Shown here: positions 12,421-21,634 of the stretch, one piece after another
Position numbering within the stretch: the stretch's first letter is position 1
Layout: the number at the start of each line of letters is the position of its first letter
Assembly: GCA_002706085.1 (NCBI GenBank)
Contig: PAJO01000061.1
Coordinates: 1-33,134, forward strand
Direction: 5' to 3'
Length of the DNA stretch: 33,134 nucleotides
Source: Alcanivoracaceae bacterium
GTDB lineage: Bacteria; Pseudomonadota; Gammaproteobacteria; Pseudomonadales; Alcanivoracaceae
Translations under genes and position numbers: made by a program
Notes under the pieces: generated by a model
What the model was told of the DNA's origin: nothing
The model's database searches: none
Seen by the model: only the letters and a program-made list of their open reading frames with translations

Positions 12421-12581
12421 CGGCCAGATTTTCATCAATCAGGCTACCTGCTGGAGGCAGGCCCTGTAATTGGTGACAAGACTTGCCTATAAGGGGTAAG
12501 GTCGAAGATTACATTATGCCCATGAGGGAAGTGCGGGCACAGGATAGAGAGTCAAAGACCATGCTAAGGGAGTTACTGAAG

Positions 12582-13787
12582 ATGGCCACCGGCAAAAAGA
12601 AAGCCCCGAAAAAGGCGGCGACCAAAAAAGCCACCGGAACTGCTGCCAGCACCCGTAAAGCCTCTACCAAACCCGCCAGCAAATCTGCCAGCAAGACAGC
12701 CACCAGCAAACCCGCCGCCAAGAAAACGCCAGCCAAAAAAGCTGCCGTGAAAAAGCCTGCGGCCAAGAAGGCTACGGCAAAAAAAGCACCAGCGAAAAAA
12801 GCGGCTGCGAAAAAGGCTGTTGCCAAGAAGCCCGCGCCGAAGAAAGCTGCGGTCAAAAAGCCCGCCGCCAAGAAAGCGGCAGTAAAAAAAGCGCCGGCGA
12901 AAAAAGCCCCAGCCAAGAAAACCGCAGCAAAGCCCACCGCCAAAAAAGCCGTTACCAGCAAGCCGGCTGCCAAAAAGGCCACCGTGAAGAAAGCCGCTGT
13001 GTCCAAGCCCAAGGCCACCAGCAAAAGCCCCGCCAAAAAAGCGCCGGCCAAGGCTGCAAGCCAATCCGTCGCGGGCAAGAGCAAGACACCCGCTGCAAAA
13101 CAGACAACCAGGGCGACCTCTGCCAAACCGGCAAAGGCTACCCGGCCAGCAGCCCCCAAGGCTGCGGCCAAGAAAGCAGCACCTGCTGCACCAAGAACAA
13201 AACTGCCTGCCTCCGGCAAGGCAAAACCGGCGGGAACTCCTGCCGCGCAACGACCATCGAACTCCGGTACCGCAAGGACTGCGCTTGCCGGCAAAGGAAT
13301 GTCGCCGAGCCGATCCACCTCTTCTGCTCAGGTAAAAAAGACAGTGAAAAAGACCTCCTCCACTTCATCCCAGGCCCTGCTGCACGGTTTCAAACCTTAT
13401 CAGCCAGCCAAGGATGAGGAATACATGAACGAGAAACAGCGTGAACACTTCCGTCAGATTCTACTGGCCTGGCGCCAGGAGCTGATGGAAGAAGCCGATC
13501 GCACCATGCACCACCTGCAGGATGAACAAGCCAATCTGCCTGACCCTGCAGACCGCGCTACCCAGGAAGAAGAATTTGCCCTGGAACTGCGTACCCGTGA
13601 CCGCGAGCGCAAGCTGCTCAAGAAGATCGAAAAGACCCTGGACCTGGTCGACAAGGACGACTACGGCTACTGTGAAGCCTGTGGCATCGAAATCGGCATC
13701 CGCCGCCTCGAAGCCCGCCCCACCGCCGAGATGTGCATCGACTGCAAGGAACTGGCGGAGATCAAGGAAAAGCAGCTGGCAGGCTAA
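12582..13787 (+). CDS. dksA: DksA with a long N-terminal Lys/Ala/Pro-rich (histone H1/AlgP-like) extension
   Basis: The last 120 residues (from Met282) are a complete DksA: two coiled-coil helices with acidic tip residues ([19 protein letters not shown]) and a zinc finger CEACG...CIDC with all four Cys, ending EKQLAG. DksA enters the RNA polymerase secondary channel and, with ppGpp, retunes promoters. Residues about 264-281 ([16 protein letters not shown]) match the short lead-in of ordinary pseudomonad DksA. Ahead of this are about 263 residues made almost only of Lys, Ala, Pro, Ser and Thr, with a five-residue AxxKK rhythm. Usual DksA length is about 150. Start: ATG 12582 follows GGGAG at 12568-12572; in-frame ATGs at 12516, 12522 and 12561 and a TTG at 12483 are possible alternatives. 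The frame is uninterrupted across the join. Confidence 0.9.
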
Positions 13788-15108: not shown

Positions 15109-15285
15109 ATGTATACAGATCGCCTGCTTATCATTTTTATTCTGGGAACCTACCTGTTGTCCCCTGCCATTATTGATTGGTGGAGCGAAGGGGGGCGAGC
15201 GTGGTATCGCCCTTATCTGATCTGGCTGGGGTTGATTGCCCTGAGCTACTGGATTGCAAAGAGCAAAGATGTCGATGGTCTATAG
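15109..15285 (+). CDS. cbrX: CbrX-like small membrane protein upstream of cbrA
   Basis: A 58-residue protein. ATG 15109 has AGAGGGA nine bases upstream. Two hydrophobic segments (LLIIFILGTYLLSPAII, about 6-22, and YLIWLGLIALSYWIA, about 37-51) separated by a short Trp- and Arg-bearing loop predict a hairpin membrane protein. The TAG (15283-15285) lies inside cbrA, so the two frames overlap by 17 bp. Pseudomonas putida has a comparable small gene, cbrX, in front of cbrA and translationally coupled to it; I assign the name from position, size and overlap, not from alignment. Coupling probably sets the dose of CbrA, whose own ribosome site is poor. Confidence 0.75.
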   Translation: MYTDRLLIIFILGTYLLSPAIIDWWSEGGRAWYRPYLIWLGLIALSYWIAKSKDVDGL

Positions 15286-18214
15286 TGTCAGTGAGCTGAT
15301 TGCCATCGCCGGTGGCTACCTGCTGTTTCTTTTCTTTGTTGCCTGGATCACCGAGCGCGGCTGGCTGCCGGCACACTGGGTGCGCCACCCCGCCGTGTAT
15401 GTGTTTTCCCTCGGGGTCTATGCCAGCGCCTGGGCGGTGTATGGCTCGGTAGGCTACGCCTACCAGTACGGCTACAACTTCCTGTCCTACTTTCTGGGTA
15501 TCTCCGGCGTATTCCTGCTGGCCCCCATCCTGCTGGCCCCGATCCTGCGCCTGACGGCCACTTACCAGCTCAGCTCCCTCGCTGACCTGTTCGCCTTCCG
15601 TTACCGCAGCCGCATGGCCGGGGCCATGACCACCATCATCATGCTGATTGGTGTGCTGCCGCTGCTTGCCTTGCAGCTCAAGGCAGTGGCGGAATCAATC
15701 CAGATCCTCAGTGGCACTGATGATCCTCGCTCACTGGCCGCGGGCTTCTGCATGATGATGGTGATCTTCGCCATCCTGTTTGGCGCCCGCCACGCCACCG
15801 CCCGGGAAAAACACGAAGGGCTGGTGGTAGCCATTGCCACAGAATCGCTGATCAAGCTGGTGGCCTTCGGCGCGGTGGCACTGCTCGGTTTGTACGGTGT
15901 TTTCGACGGCCCGGAAAGTTTGGGTCAGTGGCTGGACGATCACCCTGAGATGCTGTCGCGACTGTATTACCCACTACAGGATGGCACCTGGCATTCCATG
16001 ATCATGGCGTTTTTTGTTTCCGCCGTGGTACTGCCACATATGTTCTACATGGCCTTCACTGAGAACCTGAATCCACGGGCACTGATTACTGCCAGCTGGG
16101 CGCTGCCACTGATGTTTCTGGTCATGGCCCTGTGTGTTCCCGTGATTCTGTGGGCTGCCGCCGCCAGCAACGCCCCCACTTCGCCCGATTACTATGCGCT
16201 GGGCATTGGCCTGGTGACCGGCGGGCACGGGGCTGTGCTGGGCTACCTGGCCGGCCTGGCTGGCGCCAGCGGCATGCTGATCGTAGCCACTCTGGCGCTG
16301 TCAGGCATGTGCCTCAATCATCTGGTGTTGCCGGCCAGCCCGCTGCATCAGGGTCAGAACCTGTATCGCAACCTGCTATGGACACGGCGCATTCTGATCG
16401 CCGCGATTCTGGCACTGGCCTATCTGTTCTACCGCTTTACGGGTGCCGGCCATACCCTGGTGGAGCTGGGCGTATTGTCATTCGTGGCAACCCTGCAGTT
16501 CGTCCCCGGACTGATTGGTGCGTTGTTCTGGCCCAGCGGCAACCGCAACGGCCTGTTTGCCGGTCTCACCGTCGGCTTTCTCTGCTGGCTGCTATTGCTA
16601 CTGCTGCCGATCACCTACCCGAGCTGGCAACTCCCCCAGCTGATGGAATTGCTGGGAATGCGTTTTCACACCGGGCCGGACCAGTGGCACCACGTGGCCA
16701 TAGCCTCGGTCTCGGCCAATGCCCTGGTGTTCGCCATTGTTTCTATCGTCACCCCCATGTCCCGGGCGGAAAAAAACGCAGCGGAAGCCTGCGCCGTGGA
16801 CAGCCTGCGCCGCCCCTATCGCTGGGAGCTGGAAGCGAAAAGTGTCGATGATTTCATTGATGCCCTGAGCCAACCGCTGGGACCAATCACCGCCACCCGC
16901 GAAGTGGAAATGGCCTTGCGCGACCTGCGCCTTCCCCGCACCGAAACACGCCCGTACGCCCTGCGCCGGCTTCGCGACCAGCTGGAGACCAATCTGTCAG
17001 GCCTGCTCGGCCCCTCTGTTTCACATCAGTTAATGGATGATCATCTCCCCTACCTGCCCGAAGAAGAACAAAGCTCCAGCGAGGACATCCAGTTCATCGA
17101 ATCCCGTCTGGAACAATATCGCGACCGGTTGTCCGGGCTGGCCGCCGAACTCGACGGCCTGCGCCGCTTCCACCGGCAAACCCTGCTCGAACTGCCCATG
17201 GGGGTGATCTCGCTGGGGGCCGATGATGAGATCATTGGCTGGAACCAGGCGATGGAAGCGCTCACCAACATCAGCGCCGCCGATACCATCGGGTCCCGGC
17301 TTTCGGATCTGGTCGACCCTTGGGGCGAGTTCTTTACCCGTTTCAGTCGTGACGACAACCCACACCAGCCACAATTATCTCTGGAAGTGCAGGGCCAGAC
17401 CCGCTGGCTAAGCCTGCACAAGTCGTCAGTGATGGGCATCGGCACCGCCGAACAAGCCGGTGGCCAGGTACTGGTCATTGAGGACATCACCGAACTGCGC
17501 CACATGGAAGCACACCTTGCCCACAATGAACGGCTGGCTTCCATCGGTCGTCTGGCCGCCGGGGTTGCCCATGAAATTGGCAACCCGGTCACCGCTATTG
17601 CCTGCCTGGCGCAAAACCTGGACAGCGAAAGCGATGCCGAAGAGCAACTGGAAACCAGCCAGCAAATTCTCGAACAGACCCGGCGCATTACCCGTATTGT
17701 GGAATCGCTGGTGACCTTCAGTCATTCCGGCGGCATCAAGCAAAGCGCCCATCATGTCCCGGTCAATGTTCGCGACACCGTGGATGAAGCGATTTCCTTA
17801 TTGCTTCTCGATCCGGACCATCGCCTGCAGCAATTCGAAAATCACTGCGCCAGCGACGGCTGGGCCCACGGCGACCCTCAACGCCTGCTCCAGGTATTCA
17901 TCAACTTGCTCGGCAATGCCGCCGATGCCTGTACAGCGGAACAGGCCATTCGCATTTATTGCGAAGAGACCGAAGCCTATCTGGAAGTGCGCGTGGAAGA
18001 TCAGGGGCACGGCATCCCTGAGGGGATGCACGACACGCTTTTCGAACCCTTCGCCACCAGTAAAGCACCAGGGCGAGGCACCGGGCTTGGGTTGGCGCTG
18101 GTTTACAGTATTATCGAAGAGCACTTTGGCAGCATCAGTGTGGAAAGCCCGATCTGTGATGCCGGTGGTACCCGCTTCATTATCCGGCTACCGATTCACG
18201 CCGCTTCCCTGTAG
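15269..18214 (+). CDS. cbrA: Sensor histidine kinase CbrA with SLC5-type transporter domain
   Basis: Membrane sensor of the CbrAB two-component system governing carbon/nitrogen balance and catabolite repression. 981 residues from ATG 15269 (15275 is equally possible; a TTG at 15254 is not needed). Residues 1 to about 510 form a sodium/solute-symporter-like module with about 13 helices. A connecting region (about 515-630) probably contains the STAC domain, followed by a PAS domain (LPMGVISLGADDEIIGWNQAME, about 640-740), a HisKA domain with phospho-acceptor His768 in GVAHEIGNP, and an HATPase domain with N-box INLLGNAADAC, VEDQGHGIP and GRGTGLGLALV. All kinase motifs are intact. Pseudomonas CbrA can move histidine, but its signal is less clear. 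The gap to cbrB is 55 bp, so they are one operon. Confidence 0.93.
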   Translation: MSMVYSVSELIAIAGGYLLFLFFVAWITERGWLPAHWVRHPAVYVFSLGVYASAWAVYGSVGYAYQYGYNFLSYFLGISGVFLLAPILLAPILRLTATYQLSSLADLFAFRYRSRMAGAMTTIIMLIGVLPLLALQLKAVAESIQILSGTDDPRSLAAGFCMMMVIFAILFGARHATAREKHEGLVVAIATESLIKLVAFGAVALLGLYGVFDGPESLGQWLDDHPEMLSRLYYPLQDGTWHSMIMAFFVSAVVLPHMFYMAFTENLNPRALITASWALPLMFLVMALCVPVILWAAAASNAPTSPDYYALGIGLVTGGHGAVLGYLAGLAGASGMLIVATLALSGMCLNHLVLPASPLHQGQNLYRNLLWTRRILIAAILALAYLFYRFTGAGHTLVELGVLSFVATLQFVPGLIGALFWPSGNRNGLFAGLTVGFLCWLLLLLLPITYPSWQLPQLMELLGMRFHTGPDQWHHVAIASVSANALVFAIVSIVTPMSRAEKNAAEACAVDSLRRPYRWELEAKSVDDFIDALSQPLGPITATREVEMALRDLRLPRTETRPYALRRLRDQLETNLSGLLGPSVSHQLMDDHLPYLPEEEQSSSEDIQFIESRLEQYRDRLSGLAAELDGLRRFHRQTLLELPMGVISLGADDEIIGWNQAMEALTNISAADTIGSRLSDLVDPWGEFFTRFSRDDNPHQPQLSLEVQGQTRWLSLHKSSVMGIGTAEQAGGQVLVIEDITELRHMEAHLAHNERLASIGRLAAGVAHEIGNPVTAIACLAQNLDSESDAEEQLETSQQILEQTRRITRIVESLVTFSHSGGIKQSAHHVPVNVRDTVDEAISLLLLDPDHRLQQFENHCASDGWAHGDPQRLLQVFINLLGNAADACTAEQAIRIYCEETEAYLEVRVEDQGHGIPEGMHDTLFEPFATSKAPGRGTGLGLALVYSIIEEHFGSISVESPICDAGGTRFIIRLPIHAASL

Positions 18215-18269: not shown

Positions 18270-19598
18270 ATGAGTCACATTCTTATTGTTGAAGACGAGC
18301 CAGTGATTCGCGGTGCATTGCGTAAACTGCTCGAACGCCACGACCATTCCGTCACTGAAGCCGACTCCGTCGAGCAAGCGCGCGACAATAATCTGAATCA
18401 GTTTGACCTCATTATCAGCGACCTGCGCCTGCCGGGCGAACCGGGCACAACCCTGATCGAGATCGCAGGCAGCACCCCGGTACTGATCATGACCAGCTAT
18501 GCCAGTCTGCGATCTGCTGTGGATGCCATGCGCCAGGGAGCGGTGGACTACATTCCCAAGCCCTTTGATCACGACGAAATGCTGATTGCCGTGGACAGGG
18601 TATTAAAAGAAGGCCGACTCAACCGCGGCAACCGTGCCCTGCGCCGGGATCTGGAGCGCAGCTACCCGGTCAACAACATGGTCGGCAGCAGTGAGGCCAT
18701 GGAAGAGCTGAAACACCGCATCAGCCGTGTCGGTCCCACCAACACACCTGTGCTGATCATGGGGGAAGCCGGCACCGGCAAGGAGCTGACCGCTCGAGCG
18801 CTGCATGAGCAGAGCGAGCGCGCCAACGGCCCCTTGGTGTCAGTGCAATGTGCCGCCCTGCCCAAGACCCTGCAACTCACCGAGCTGTTCGGCGATGAAG
18901 ACACCGCCGGGCGCATCGAAGAAGCAGATGGGGGCACCCTTTTTCTGGATGAAATCGGCGAACTCACCAGCGATGCACAAAGCCGCCTCCTAACCCTGCT
19001 AACTCATCACGAAATTCATCGTCAGGGCTCCCTCGCCCCACGCAAGGTCGATGTGCGTATCTTGGTCAGCAGCCAGCTGGACCTGCCAAGCCGGGTGGCC
19101 GATGGCCATTTCCGCCAGGATCTCTATTACCGCCTGAACGTCATGGAGCTTACCCTGCCCCCGCTGCGCGAACGCCAGGACGATATCGATACGCTTGCCG
19201 ATGCACTGCTCTCACGTGGATGCGAGAAACTGAACCGCCACGACCTCGTCTTTACCGACGCCGCACGCCAGGCCATGCACAGTTATAGCTGGCCGGGGAA
19301 TGTGCGCGAGCTAGAGAATGTCATCGAGCGGGCCATCATCCTCTGCGAAGAGGACGGTATCGGGCCGGCGCAACTGGGCCTGAACCCCAACCGCACCCCG
19401 CAACGGGTCAGCCGCGCCAGTCTGGACCCCAGTGAAGACCTGTCACTGGAGGATTATTTCACCCGCTTTGTCATGGAAAACCAGGACAGCATGACGGAAA
19501 CCGAGCTAGCCCAGAAACTCGGCATTAGCCGAAAAAGCCTGTGGGAACGTCGCCAACGTCTTGGAATTCCTAGAAAAAAGGCCGGCAGCCGCCGTTAA
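18270..19598 (+). CDS. cbrB: NtrC-type response regulator CbrB, lacking the GAFTGA loop
   Basis: 442 residues: receiver domain (acidic pocket Glu8-Asp9-Glu10, phospho-acceptor Asp51, Thr75, Lys97), AAA+ domain with Walker A GEAGTGKE (165-172) and Walker B GGTLFLDEIG (221-230), YYRLNVMELTLPPLRER with arginine-finger region, and a Fis-type HTH at the end (ETELAQKLGISRKSLWERRQ). Position after cbrA and before crcZ/pcnB identifies it. The oddity is between ELFGDE (205-210) and AGRIEEA (from 213): the about ten residues that normally hold GAFTGA, the loop that touches sigma54, are missing. ATPase residues otherwise look whole. Either this CbrB works through another contact or with sigma70. The ribosome site is weak. 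Confidence 0.92.
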   Translation: MSHILIVEDEPVIRGALRKLLERHDHSVTEADSVEQARDNNLNQFDLIISDLRLPGEPGTTLIEIAGSTPVLIMTSYASLRSAVDAMRQGAVDYIPKPFDHDEMLIAVDRVLKEGRLNRGNRALRRDLERSYPVNNMVGSSEAMEELKHRISRVGPTNTPVLIMGEAGTGKELTARALHEQSERANGPLVSVQCAALPKTLQLTELFGDEDTAGRIEEADGGTLFLDEIGELTSDAQSRLLTLLTHHEIHRQGSLAPRKVDVRILVSSQLDLPSRVADGHFRQDLYYRLNVMELTLPPLRERQDDIDTLADALLSRGCEKLNRHDLVFTDAARQAMHSYSWPGNVRELENVIERAIILCEEDGIGPAQLGLNPNRTPQRVSRASLDPSEDLSLEDYFTRFVMENQDSMTETELAQKLGISRKSLWERRQRLGIPRKKAGSRR

Positions 19599-19720
19599 GC
19601 CATCCTCTGGGACCGTCCACCCGGCAGTACGCCATTGACCGGAGATTCCACACCGCCGGTCTCTACTGCCAAACAGAATTTTTCTTGCTGGCCTGCGCTG
19701 AAACGGCGAAAACGTGACCT

Positions 19721-19781
19721 GTTACCTCATTTGAGTAGCAAGTGTTACCGCACTACTCAGGAAAGTAACAACTTCGTTACC
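19721..19781. promoter_or_regulatory. Candidate CbrB enhancer: four GTTAC/GTAAC half-sites
   Basis: TGTTACC occurs at 19720-19726 and 19743-19749, GTAAC at 19765-19769 and GTTACC at 19776-19781. The first and third, with TGAGTAG (19732-19738) and CTACTCA (19753-19759) between them, make an imperfect 49-bp dyad. The last two form their own GTAAC-N6-GTTAC palindrome. The cluster lies 100-150 bp before the first CA motif of the sRNA, where an upstream activating site would be expected. Confidence 0.6.
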
Positions 19782-19879
19782 TTGGTGAGGGGGTTTTTAA
19801 GGGGATTTCTGAGAAAGCATTGCAAGGCATTGTTTCTGTTATGGTTTTTGGTTTGTTGCATTGCCAGGGGTGTACGGGC

Positions 19880-20088
19880 ACTATGAATCCCACGCCAGCA
19901 AACAACAAAAACAACGGCGTAAACGGCTCAACAATAACAACAAGAAAGAAGAAGAATAATTTCACGAGCCAATGCAGTGCTGCTGCAACTGATGATTGCA
20001 GCGACAAGGCAGAAAACAACACAAACAATAATAACAACAGAATCAGCGCAAAATATGGGAGTCACAACTTCGGTTGTGGCTCCTTTTT
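19880..20088 (+). ncRNA. crcZ: CrcZ-like Hfq/Crc-sequestering small RNA
   Basis: In Pseudomonas, CrcZ lies between cbrB and pcnB, is activated by CbrB, and titrates Hfq-Crc through CA-rich motifs to relieve catabolite repression. Here the same gap carries three clusters that match AAYAAYAA: 19899-19915 (AACAACAA), 19929-19944 (AACAATAA, AATAACAA, AACAACAA overlapping) and 20013-20039 (AACAATAA, AATAATAA, AATAACAA overlapping). A perfect 7-bp hairpin (GCTGCAA 19982-19988, TTGCAGC 19996-20002) separates the last two, and the RNA ends in a strong terminator. The 5' end is not fixed; the first motif suggests about 19870-19895, giving about 200 nt, half the length of P. aeruginosa CrcZ. A weak sigma70-like pair (TTGCCA 19861-19866, TATGAA 19882-19887, spacer only 15) is the best promoter I see. 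Confidence 0.82.
20058..20088 (+). terminator. Rho-independent terminator of the CrcZ-like RNA
   Basis: An 11-bp stem (GGAGTCACAAC 20058-20068 with GTTGTGGCTCC 20073-20083, one G-T pair), UUCG tetraloop and five T. It is the strongest terminator in the window. Confidence 0.92.
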
Positions 20089-20197
20089 ACTTTGTGGCGC
20101 AGGGCCATTCCCGAGTATACGCCAGGAACGTCTCACTTGGCGATAAAAAGTGCTACCATCGCCGCTTCACAGCTTTTAACGAGTCACACGCCACCTA

Positions 20198-21634
20198 ATG
20201 CTCTCTCAGCTAACCAGCACGCCCGTTGTGGCGACTGTCATCGCGATCCTCGCTGTTGCCCTGATCGCTCTGTTCATTGTGACGCAACGACGACGGAGAA
20301 GTTCCTCGCCGCAAGAAGAATTTATGCCTTCTGTGCAGATCATTCCCCGCGACCAGCATCCTATCTCCCGGCAGCAGGTCTCACGCGCCGCACTCAACGT
20401 GCTGTACGGCCTGCACAAGGCCGGTTTCGAGGCATTTCTGGTCGGCGGCTGTCTGCGTGACATCCTTAGCGGCCGCGAGCCCAAGGATTTCGACGTGGCT
20501 ACCGATGCCACACCAGAGCAGGTCAATCGCCTGTTCAAGCGCAGCCGGATCATTGGCCGCCGCTTTCAGATTGTGCATGTCCGTTTTGGCCGAGAGGTCA
20601 TTGAGGTTTCTACCTTCCGGGCCATGAACACTGACGACAACCCGGACAAACAACAGCATCACGCCCATGAAGAAACCGGGCTGGTACTGCGTGACAATAC
20701 CTGGGGCAGCATTGAGGAAGATGCCCTACGCAGGGATTTCACCATCAACGCCCTGTACTACAACATTGCTGATTTCAGCCTGCACGACTTCACCGGCAGC
20801 ATGCAGGATATCAACGATCAGGTGATTCACCTGATCGGCGATGCCCAGACCCGTTACCGGGAGGACCCGGTCCGTATGCTGCGCGCCGCACGCTTTGCCG
20901 CCAAGTTGGACTTCCATATCGATCCGGCCACGGCCGATCCGATTCCCGAGCTCGCCGAGCTGTTGCTGCAGGTTCCGGCTGCCCGGCTGTTTGATGAAGT
21001 GCTCAAGCTATTCCTCAGCGGCCATGCCCGCGCCTCCTATGAGCAGCTGCAACAGCTCAACCTGTTCCGCTTCCTGTTCCCGGAAACCCAACAGGCCCTC
21101 GAAGGGGAGCAAGGCCAGATCTGGGAAACCATGCTGCTCGCAGCCATGGACAATACCGATCGCCGCCTGGAAGCGGACAAGCCCGTCACTCCGGCCTTTA
21201 TCTATGCCGTATTGCTGTGGCCCGTCATCCAGCAGCGCCTGGGAGGCTACCTGTCCAGCGGTCTGCCGCCGGCACAAGCCCTGCACAAGGCCGCTACCCG
21301 TGCGCTCAATCAGCAGATTCAGCACACCGCCATCCCGCGCCGTTTCTCCACCGTGATGCGGGAAATGTGGGAACTGCAATTCCGCCTGGACAAACGCGCA
21401 GGCCGCCGGGCCGACGCTTTGATGGAGCACCCCCGCTTCCGGGCCGCCTACGATTTCCTGCTGCTGCGTGAGCAGGCTGGGGAGATAAACCCGGGCCTGG
21501 GCGACTGGTGGACCCGTTACCAGGAAGAGGACGAAACCGGCCGTCGCGACATGATCACCCAGCTTGGCAACCAGGGAGGCACTGGCAAACGCCGTCGACG
21601 TCGCCGCCCTCGCAAGCCCAAGGCAGAAGGTTAA
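20198..21634 (+). CDS. pcnB: Poly(A) polymerase I with a predicted N-terminal membrane segment
   Basis: PAP I adds 3' poly(A) tails that promote RNA decay. 478 residues. The nucleotidyltransferase head has FLVGGCLRDIL (about 78-88) and KDFDVATDATPEQV with the DxD metal ligands; then RRFQIVHVRFGREVIEVSTFR, the RRDFTINALYYN motif, DPVRMLRAARFAAKLDF, and a basic tail (GKRRRRRRPRKPKAEG). These separate it from CCA-adding enzymes by synteny and tail. Residues about 10-28 (VVATVIAILAVALIALFIV) are a clear hydrophobic helix followed by RRRR, which predicts anchoring in the inner membrane with the enzyme in the cytoplasm. A start at ATG 20324 would remove this helix; neither start has a strong ribosome site. 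Follows crcZ as in pseudomonads. Confidence 0.92.
   Translation: MLSQLTSTPVVATVIAILAVALIALFIVTQRRRRSSSPQEEFMPSVQIIPRDQHPISRQQVSRAALNVLYGLHKAGFEAFLVGGCLRDILSGREPKDFDVATDATPEQVNRLFKRSRIIGRRFQIVHVRFGREVIEVSTFRAMNTDDNPDKQQHHAHEETGLVLRDNTWGSIEEDALRRDFTINALYYNIADFSLHDFTGSMQDINDQVIHLIGDAQTRYREDPVRMLRAARFAAKLDFHIDPATADPIPELAELLLQVPAARLFDEVLKLFLSGHARASYEQLQQLNLFRFLFPETQQALEGEQGQIWETMLLAAMDNTDRRLEADKPVTPAFIYAVLLWPVIQQRLGGYLSSGLPPAQALHKAATRALNQQIQHTAIPRRFSTVMREMWELQFRLDKRAGRRADALMEHPRFRAAYDFLLLREQAGEINPGLGDWWTRYQEEDETGRRDMITQLGNQGGTGKRRRRRRPRKPKAEG

Follow-up and report, generated by a model that had tools for sequence, protein, structure and literature searches.

Does the gap between cbrB and pcnB in the Alcanivoracaceae encode a counterpart of the Pseudomonas small RNA CrcZ and, if so, with which polymerase and which RNA-binding partner would that RNA work? 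We examined a 33,134-nucleotide stretch of DNA (the window) from a 3.78 Mb Alcanivorax genome whose nearest named relative is A. profundi. The gene order is dksA, gluQRS, cbrA, cbrB, the gap, pcnB and folK, with panB and panC further on. Translation and Pfam matches describe cbrA (15254-18214, + strand) as encoding a sensor kinase with a long N-terminal part followed by PAS, HisKA and HATPase_c domains, and cbrB (18270-19598, +) as encoding a response regulator with receiver and AAA+ domains, from which the GAFTGA loop is absent; both names were assigned from domains and neighbourhood. The N-terminus of CbrA is transporter-like, and Pfam at 1e-5 recognised no transporter domain in the CbrA of the window. 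The poly(A) polymerase gene pcnB lies at 20198-21634 (+). A CbrA kinase and an NtrC-type CbrB are encoded side by side, and the gap between cbrB and pcnB, read on the same strand, is the position occupied by CrcZ. Elsewhere in the window, DksA forms the C-terminal ~145 residues of a 434-residue ORF (12483-13787, +) whose start codon is uncertain; the N-terminal side is a long lysine/alanine-rich stretch, and residues 34-177 match histone H1/Hc2-like models.

The predicted small RNA is about 200 nt long (about 19888-20087, +), as given by a covariance-model match of 202 bits, in a model that includes this sequence itself, and by the fold; its 5' end is the model boundary. Seven AAYAAYAA motifs fall into three clusters (19901; 19930/19933/19936; 20024/20027/20030), and all + strand matches in the 33-kb window are these seven, within 19901-20037, with two on the - strand elsewhere. 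None of 5000 dinucleotide shuffles of 19860-20090 reached seven (mean 0.22, maximum 4). The predicted fold of 19889-20088 (-48.4 kcal/mol, z -4.15) comprises three hairpins and a 12-bp intrinsic terminator with a UUCG loop (20057-20088). Hairpin 1 (19892-19920) carries the first CA cluster in its loop and hairpin 2 (19925-19970, stem GGCTC/GAGCC) the second; hairpin 3 (19973-20011) varies in length and sequence between genera, and the third cluster (20024-20037) is unpaired. Across the family alignment, the inner four pairs of hairpin 1 are paired in 91.7% of cells and its outer pair in 55%, hairpin 2 is nearly invariant with 99% of cells paired, and hairpin 3 aligns poorly (47-65%). Because hairpins 1 and 2 hardly vary, covariation neither backs nor contradicts them; in the terminator both sides have changed in 7 of the 12 pairs (alignment of 21 of 35 distinct family sequences). 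The first-pass annotation had described a short RNA outside Pseudomonas, placed in this gap, with seven motifs in three clusters and a UUCG-capped terminator, and gene calls, domains, the motif scan and the fold agree with it on each of these points. The perfect internal hairpin that it also reported is present (about 19981-20003) but is the least-kept stem across the family, paired in 47% of cells. An overlapping 108-residue ORF (19820-20146) was considered as a small protein and rejected as non-coding, since in 17 sequences of the genus the spacing of fixed anchors (131, 132, 144 and 145 nt) changes by indels that break the frame.

A family covariance model recovers the RNA from all but one of 36 Alcanivoracaceae genomes (family f1 of our genome collection), with one copy in 34, two, one of them partial, in G013, and none in G031, which is 64% complete. 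In G029, a single-contig genome, the match lies at 4261055-4261252 (+). The same search returned a single copy in the window's own genome, where a second, CrcY-like copy was sought and rejected. At least two AAYAAYAA motifs lie in every one of 35 family gaps, with 208 sense matches against one antisense. Outside the family, under the tighter filtering applied to sets of more than 40 genomes, the model had no match at E<=0.01 in any of 21 genomes. Applied to 38 of 69 outside loci (from the best 80 of 560 confirmed), it gave 26 weak matches at E<=1, 25 of them immediately after cbrB and on the expected strand; shared A-richness may contribute to these.

Adjoining the terminator, gap comparison identified a AGAATCAGCGCA block (20039-20050, +), around which all 17 columns of 20036-20052 are invariant in 17 sequences of the genus. 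Its core, ATCAGCGCA, is unpaired in the predicted fold and occurs in 37 of 37 Alcanivoracaceae gaps (one of which, L019, stops before the terminator), and it was found in none of 69 outside gaps among the best 80 of 560 loci and in none of 19 outside gaps of the genome set. The block is a possible base-pairing seed, and these observations are what one would cite for an RNA that regulates mainly by base-pairing, with the CA clusters as a grip for Hfq. Against that reading, three spaced CA clusters seem more than such a grip needs, and the AGAATCAGCGCA block could have a role in termination, in processing or in the binding of Hfq instead. We consider a mainly base-pairing RNA unlikely.

Upstream of the RNA lies a CbrB-type site (19741-19781, +), recognised by sequence match and conservation, in which TGTTAC (F1, 19743-19748) and GTAACA (R1, 19765-19770) are followed by a trailing GTTACC; the subsite sequences were taken from PMC6296734, and the spacing of 22 bp lies within the 20-25 bp or so looked for. 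In 17 genus sequences, 26 of the 41 columns of this TGTTAC-N16-GTAACA site are invariant, compared with 1 of the 136 columns before it and 6 of the 72 after it. A further F-type TGTTAC is found by sequence match at 19720-19725 (+). Two reverse subsites are described for P. putida, and only one of them has an exact match here. Genome-wide, TGTTAC-N13-18-GTAACA occurs at two places, one of them this locus, and a reversed control also gives two; the other pair (G000:C5:20506-20533, L269) is a near-perfect palindrome that could be a second CbrB target or chance.

The putative promoter between site and RNA is not of the sigma54 type, as a -24/-12 box was found in none of 35 family gaps. In its place are TTGCAT (19856-19861, +), a candidate -35 element, and, exactly 20 nt after it, TATGAA (19882-19887, +), a candidate -10 element; all 37 Alcanivoracaceae gaps have the general form TTGC(A/C)N and NAT with a spacing of exactly 20 nt. 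The distance from TGTTAC to TTGCA, measured in 35 family gaps, is 112-114 bp in 25, 101-102 bp in four and 81 bp in six, the last six having a second, nearer TGTTAC. For a sigma70 promoter a spacer of 20 nt is long, which counts against a housekeeping-promoter model, and a consensus scan found no sigma70 promoter on the RNA strand. That null result would suit a 3' untranslated remnant of the cbrB mRNA, made by read-through and lacking a promoter of its own, as would the report that Pseudomonas crcZ is partly transcribed by read-through from the cbrB promoter (PMC8871633). Such a remnant would not be expected to keep an element like TTGCAW-N20-TATGAA with its spacing unchanged in all 37 gaps, nor upstream sites that are conserved in the genus where the stretch after cbrB is not, and we regard this origin as very improbable.

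The change at the promoter is matched by one in CbrB, where the GAFTGA loop for sigma54 is lost in all 35 family proteins: in 22 genomes, from two genera, a 9-residue gap removes the stretch completely, and in the 13 others it is degenerate or has lost some of its residues. In the CbrB of the window the Sigma54_activat domain matches end to end apart from the missing loop, and the Walker motifs, read by eye, are kept. Genera g2 and g5 carry the loops GAFAAA, GAFAGA and GAFEGA (L093, L094 and L032). Such intermediates give the impression of a stepwise decay of the sigma54-contact loop, ending in its deletion in genera g1 and g3. Among 15 full-length outside CbrBs of 19 (G036, G045, G046 and G056, matched in part, being left out), the loop reads GAFTGA in 12, GSFTGA in two and GAFSGA in one, and a GAFTGA-type loop is present at 67 of 69 outside loci among the best 80 of 560; of the other two, L164 is truncated by its contig and L168 has an unresolved frame. 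The window's own genome encodes RpoN, as do 33 of the 36 family genomes. The nearest parallel is the GAFTGA-less NtrC of Rhodobacter capsulatus and Caulobacter described in a preprint (PMC10274813), likewise an NtrC-type AAA+ regulator with the sigma54-contact loop deleted and the Walker motifs kept; NtrC proteins of this kind are reported there to act at sigma70 promoters. The protein here is CbrB rather than NtrC, and the loop loss is graded within one family. Given that both the GAFTGA loop and the -24/-12 boxes are missing, we infer that CbrB activates through a non-sigma54 polymerase; a role for the loop-less protein at a sigma70 promoter would follow the NtrC precedent.

Over the whole genome set, 54 of 57 relatives, from 20 of 22 families, have a CbrB match at E<=1e-100, every family other than f1 being represented by one genome. 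This differs from the view of a 2022 review (PMC8871633), in which CbrAB is unique to the Pseudomonadaceae and orthologous systems are undescribed. We also collected 69 outside loci from the best 80 of 560 confirmed, a non-random choice made by likeness to the tail of the window CbrB; 24 are titled Pseudomonas, and others come from Marinobacter, Halomonas, Zhongshania, Halieaceae, Spongiibacter and Endozoicomonas. This set and the genome set overlap (L110 is G015, whose CbrB is 96% identical to that of the window), and most of the best 80 of 560 loci have a cbrA match that covers nearly the whole gene. At least two sense AAYAAYAA motifs are present in 63 of these 69 gaps from the best 80 of 560, with 346 sense matches in total against 17 antisense, and the sigma54 box TGGCAY-N6-TGCW in 66 (shuffle mean 0.12), at a median of 20 nt ahead of the first CA motif. 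Among the best 80 of 560, the outside CbrB site precedes the -24 box by 123-126 bp in 28 of 35 scorable loci and by 133-134 bp in seven, a distance similar to that from TGTTAC to TTGCA in the family, and rough RNA lengths, estimable in 19 of the 69, run from 281 to 594 nt. In the genome set the box is found in 12 of 19 outside gaps. Judged from these comparisons, CbrB accompanied by a CA-rich gap with a sigma54 box ahead of it is widespread across the order, for example in Marinobacter, Halomonas and Zhongshania, a breadth that the first-pass annotation had not noted. Not every member of the order has the RNA, since some outside gaps have fewer than two AAYAAYAA motifs (4 of 19 in the genome set, 6 of 69 from the best 80 of 560) or no strict sigma54 box (7 of 19 and 3 of 69, respectively). 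In open-licence papers we found neither a CrcZ-like RNA nor a function for CbrAB reported from any named organism that is not a member of the Pseudomonadaceae; cbrAB transcripts are reported from a marine community in PMC5073097, apparently with no organism named for them.

How close, then, is the family RNA to CrcZ itself (RF01675, with CrcY and CrcX)? Like Pseudomonas CrcZ, it is encoded downstream of cbrAB and before pcnB, with several CA clusters, a terminator, CbrB subsites of the same sequence at similar spacing, and Hfq as the likely ligand. Unlike CrcZ, it is about 200 nt long against a 398-position model, is present in single copy, has a 3' block of its own and accompanies a CbrB without GAFTGA, with neither a sigma54 promoter nor a detectable Crc. 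An Rfam scan at gathering level gave no match anywhere in the window. A 601-base search with RF01675, the covariance check proposed by the first-pass annotation, scored 26.2 bits against a cut-off of 95 (E 4.3e-5), on which membership of the Rfam CrcZ family was rejected; the alignment has an accuracy of 0.62 and overruns the terminator by 30 bases. Run on 20 of 54 loci, the model gave 306.8 bits in L075, a control locus from a genome with an 86% identical Crc, and 19.9-36.0 bits in seven others including this one. The weak match may rest largely on shared A-rich clusters.

Crc itself is missing from the family. Searches of the window's own genome and of 46 family genomes gave no Crc-grade match; of the 46, 25 gave weak matches only (none better than 4.9e-10; 24-30% identical) and 21 none. 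A hidden Crc in the own genome was also rejected: it has only three Exo_endo_phos genes, and the best candidate, the one of the three compared further, is exonuclease III. PMC9788540 states independently that Alcanivorax has no Crc homologue. Outside the family, 17 of 21 genomes have Crc matches at 38-86% identity and two more at 30-32%; a match is missing from the remaining two, one of them 75% complete. The Crc-like matches of G051 (32%) and G052 (30%) may not be true Crc. G052 (L083, family f18), with only that Crc-like match, combines a GAFSGA CbrB with a 258-base gap and no AAYAAYAA, and in G053 (family f19) there is no match to CbrB at E<=1e-100 or to Crc at E<=0.001; both genomes also seem to lack the RNA.

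A merely shortened CrcZ of the orthodox kind, driven by sigma54 and CbrB and antagonising an Hfq-Crc complex, would share the gene neighbourhood, the CA clusters and the CbrB subsites seen here, and would explain a sub-threshold Rfam match on the right strand. It also calls for a Crc, a sigma54 box and a GAFTGA loop, found in 0 of 46 genomes, 0 of 35 gaps and 0 of 35 CbrBs, and we give it very little chance. Because the Rfam score, the promoter and Crc all fall short, we name the RNA CrcZ-like, not CrcZ; what survives of the first-pass proposal is the position, the CA clusters, the CbrB-type sites, the terminator and hfq, which the genome does encode. The first-pass annotation had counted absence of Crc as grounds for refutation. 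In P. aeruginosa, CrcZ, whose expression is under RpoN and CbrAB, sequesters Hfq, and in reporter fusions without Crc repression falls by about half (PMC8266614). Since CrcZ acts on Hfq there, the loss of Crc alters the model without killing it, and since half of the repression survives, an Hfq-only decoy is workable. That the RNA is a functionless leader or decayed relic is barely credible, as 108 of 153 RNA columns are invariant among 17 congeners (against 1/136 and 6/72 in the upstream spacers and 27/103 in the spacer before pcnB) and the terminator covaries.

We therefore favour, at a probability of roughly three in four, a single-copy RNA of about 200 nt that serves as a Crc-independent Hfq decoy, is activated by CbrB through a non-sigma54 polymerase, and is the Alcanivoracaceae counterpart of CrcZ. 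Under poor carbon supply CbrA would activate CbrB, which would bind the TGTTAC/GTAACA sites, some 110 bp upstream, and turn on the RNA with a polymerase that is most likely the housekeeping form. The three A-rich (AAN)n clusters, of which the first two sit in hairpin loops and the third is single-stranded, would then bind the distal face of Hfq, and the RNA would titrate Hfq away from its target mRNAs; Crc plays no part in this model because it is absent. Residues 1-69 of Hfq are identical in the 29 family loci read. Position 25 is F rather than Y, as it is in 6 of 18 outside Hfqs read, and it does not track Crc, since F also occurs in genomes with Crc. CA motifs precede an ATG at 112 places in the own genome, against 57 for a reversed-pattern control; five of the first 30 lie directly before a possible start of an ORF of at least 190 residues, and by reading none of these five is an obvious alkane gene.

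RNAs that titrate a global RNA-binding regulator have already been proposed in the same family, namely CsrR1 and CsrR2 of Alcanivorax dieselolei (PMC9788540). These differ in carrying GGA motifs for CsrA and in lying at other loci, where the present RNA has CA clusters for Hfq. The same study catalogued 549 sRNAs in A. dieselolei B-5; in its main text, the named Rfam-annotated and broadly conserved intergenic sRNAs include none at this locus, and no sRNA name begins with sRNA426. A wider reading, which we put forward tentatively and consider less likely than not, is that the carbon-repression switch has been rebuilt in the Alcanivoracaceae, with CbrB turned into an activator of the housekeeping polymerase, Crc discarded, and a compact RNA both titrating Hfq and base-pairing through AGAATCAGCGCA. 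The RNA is a candidate regulator of alkane use in organisms in which PMC9788540 noted that Crc is missing. The Alcanivoracaceae, as marine alkane degraders, offer a natural experiment on whether an Hfq decoy RNA can run carbon-source choice without Crc, and on how an enhancer-binding protein changes polymerase.
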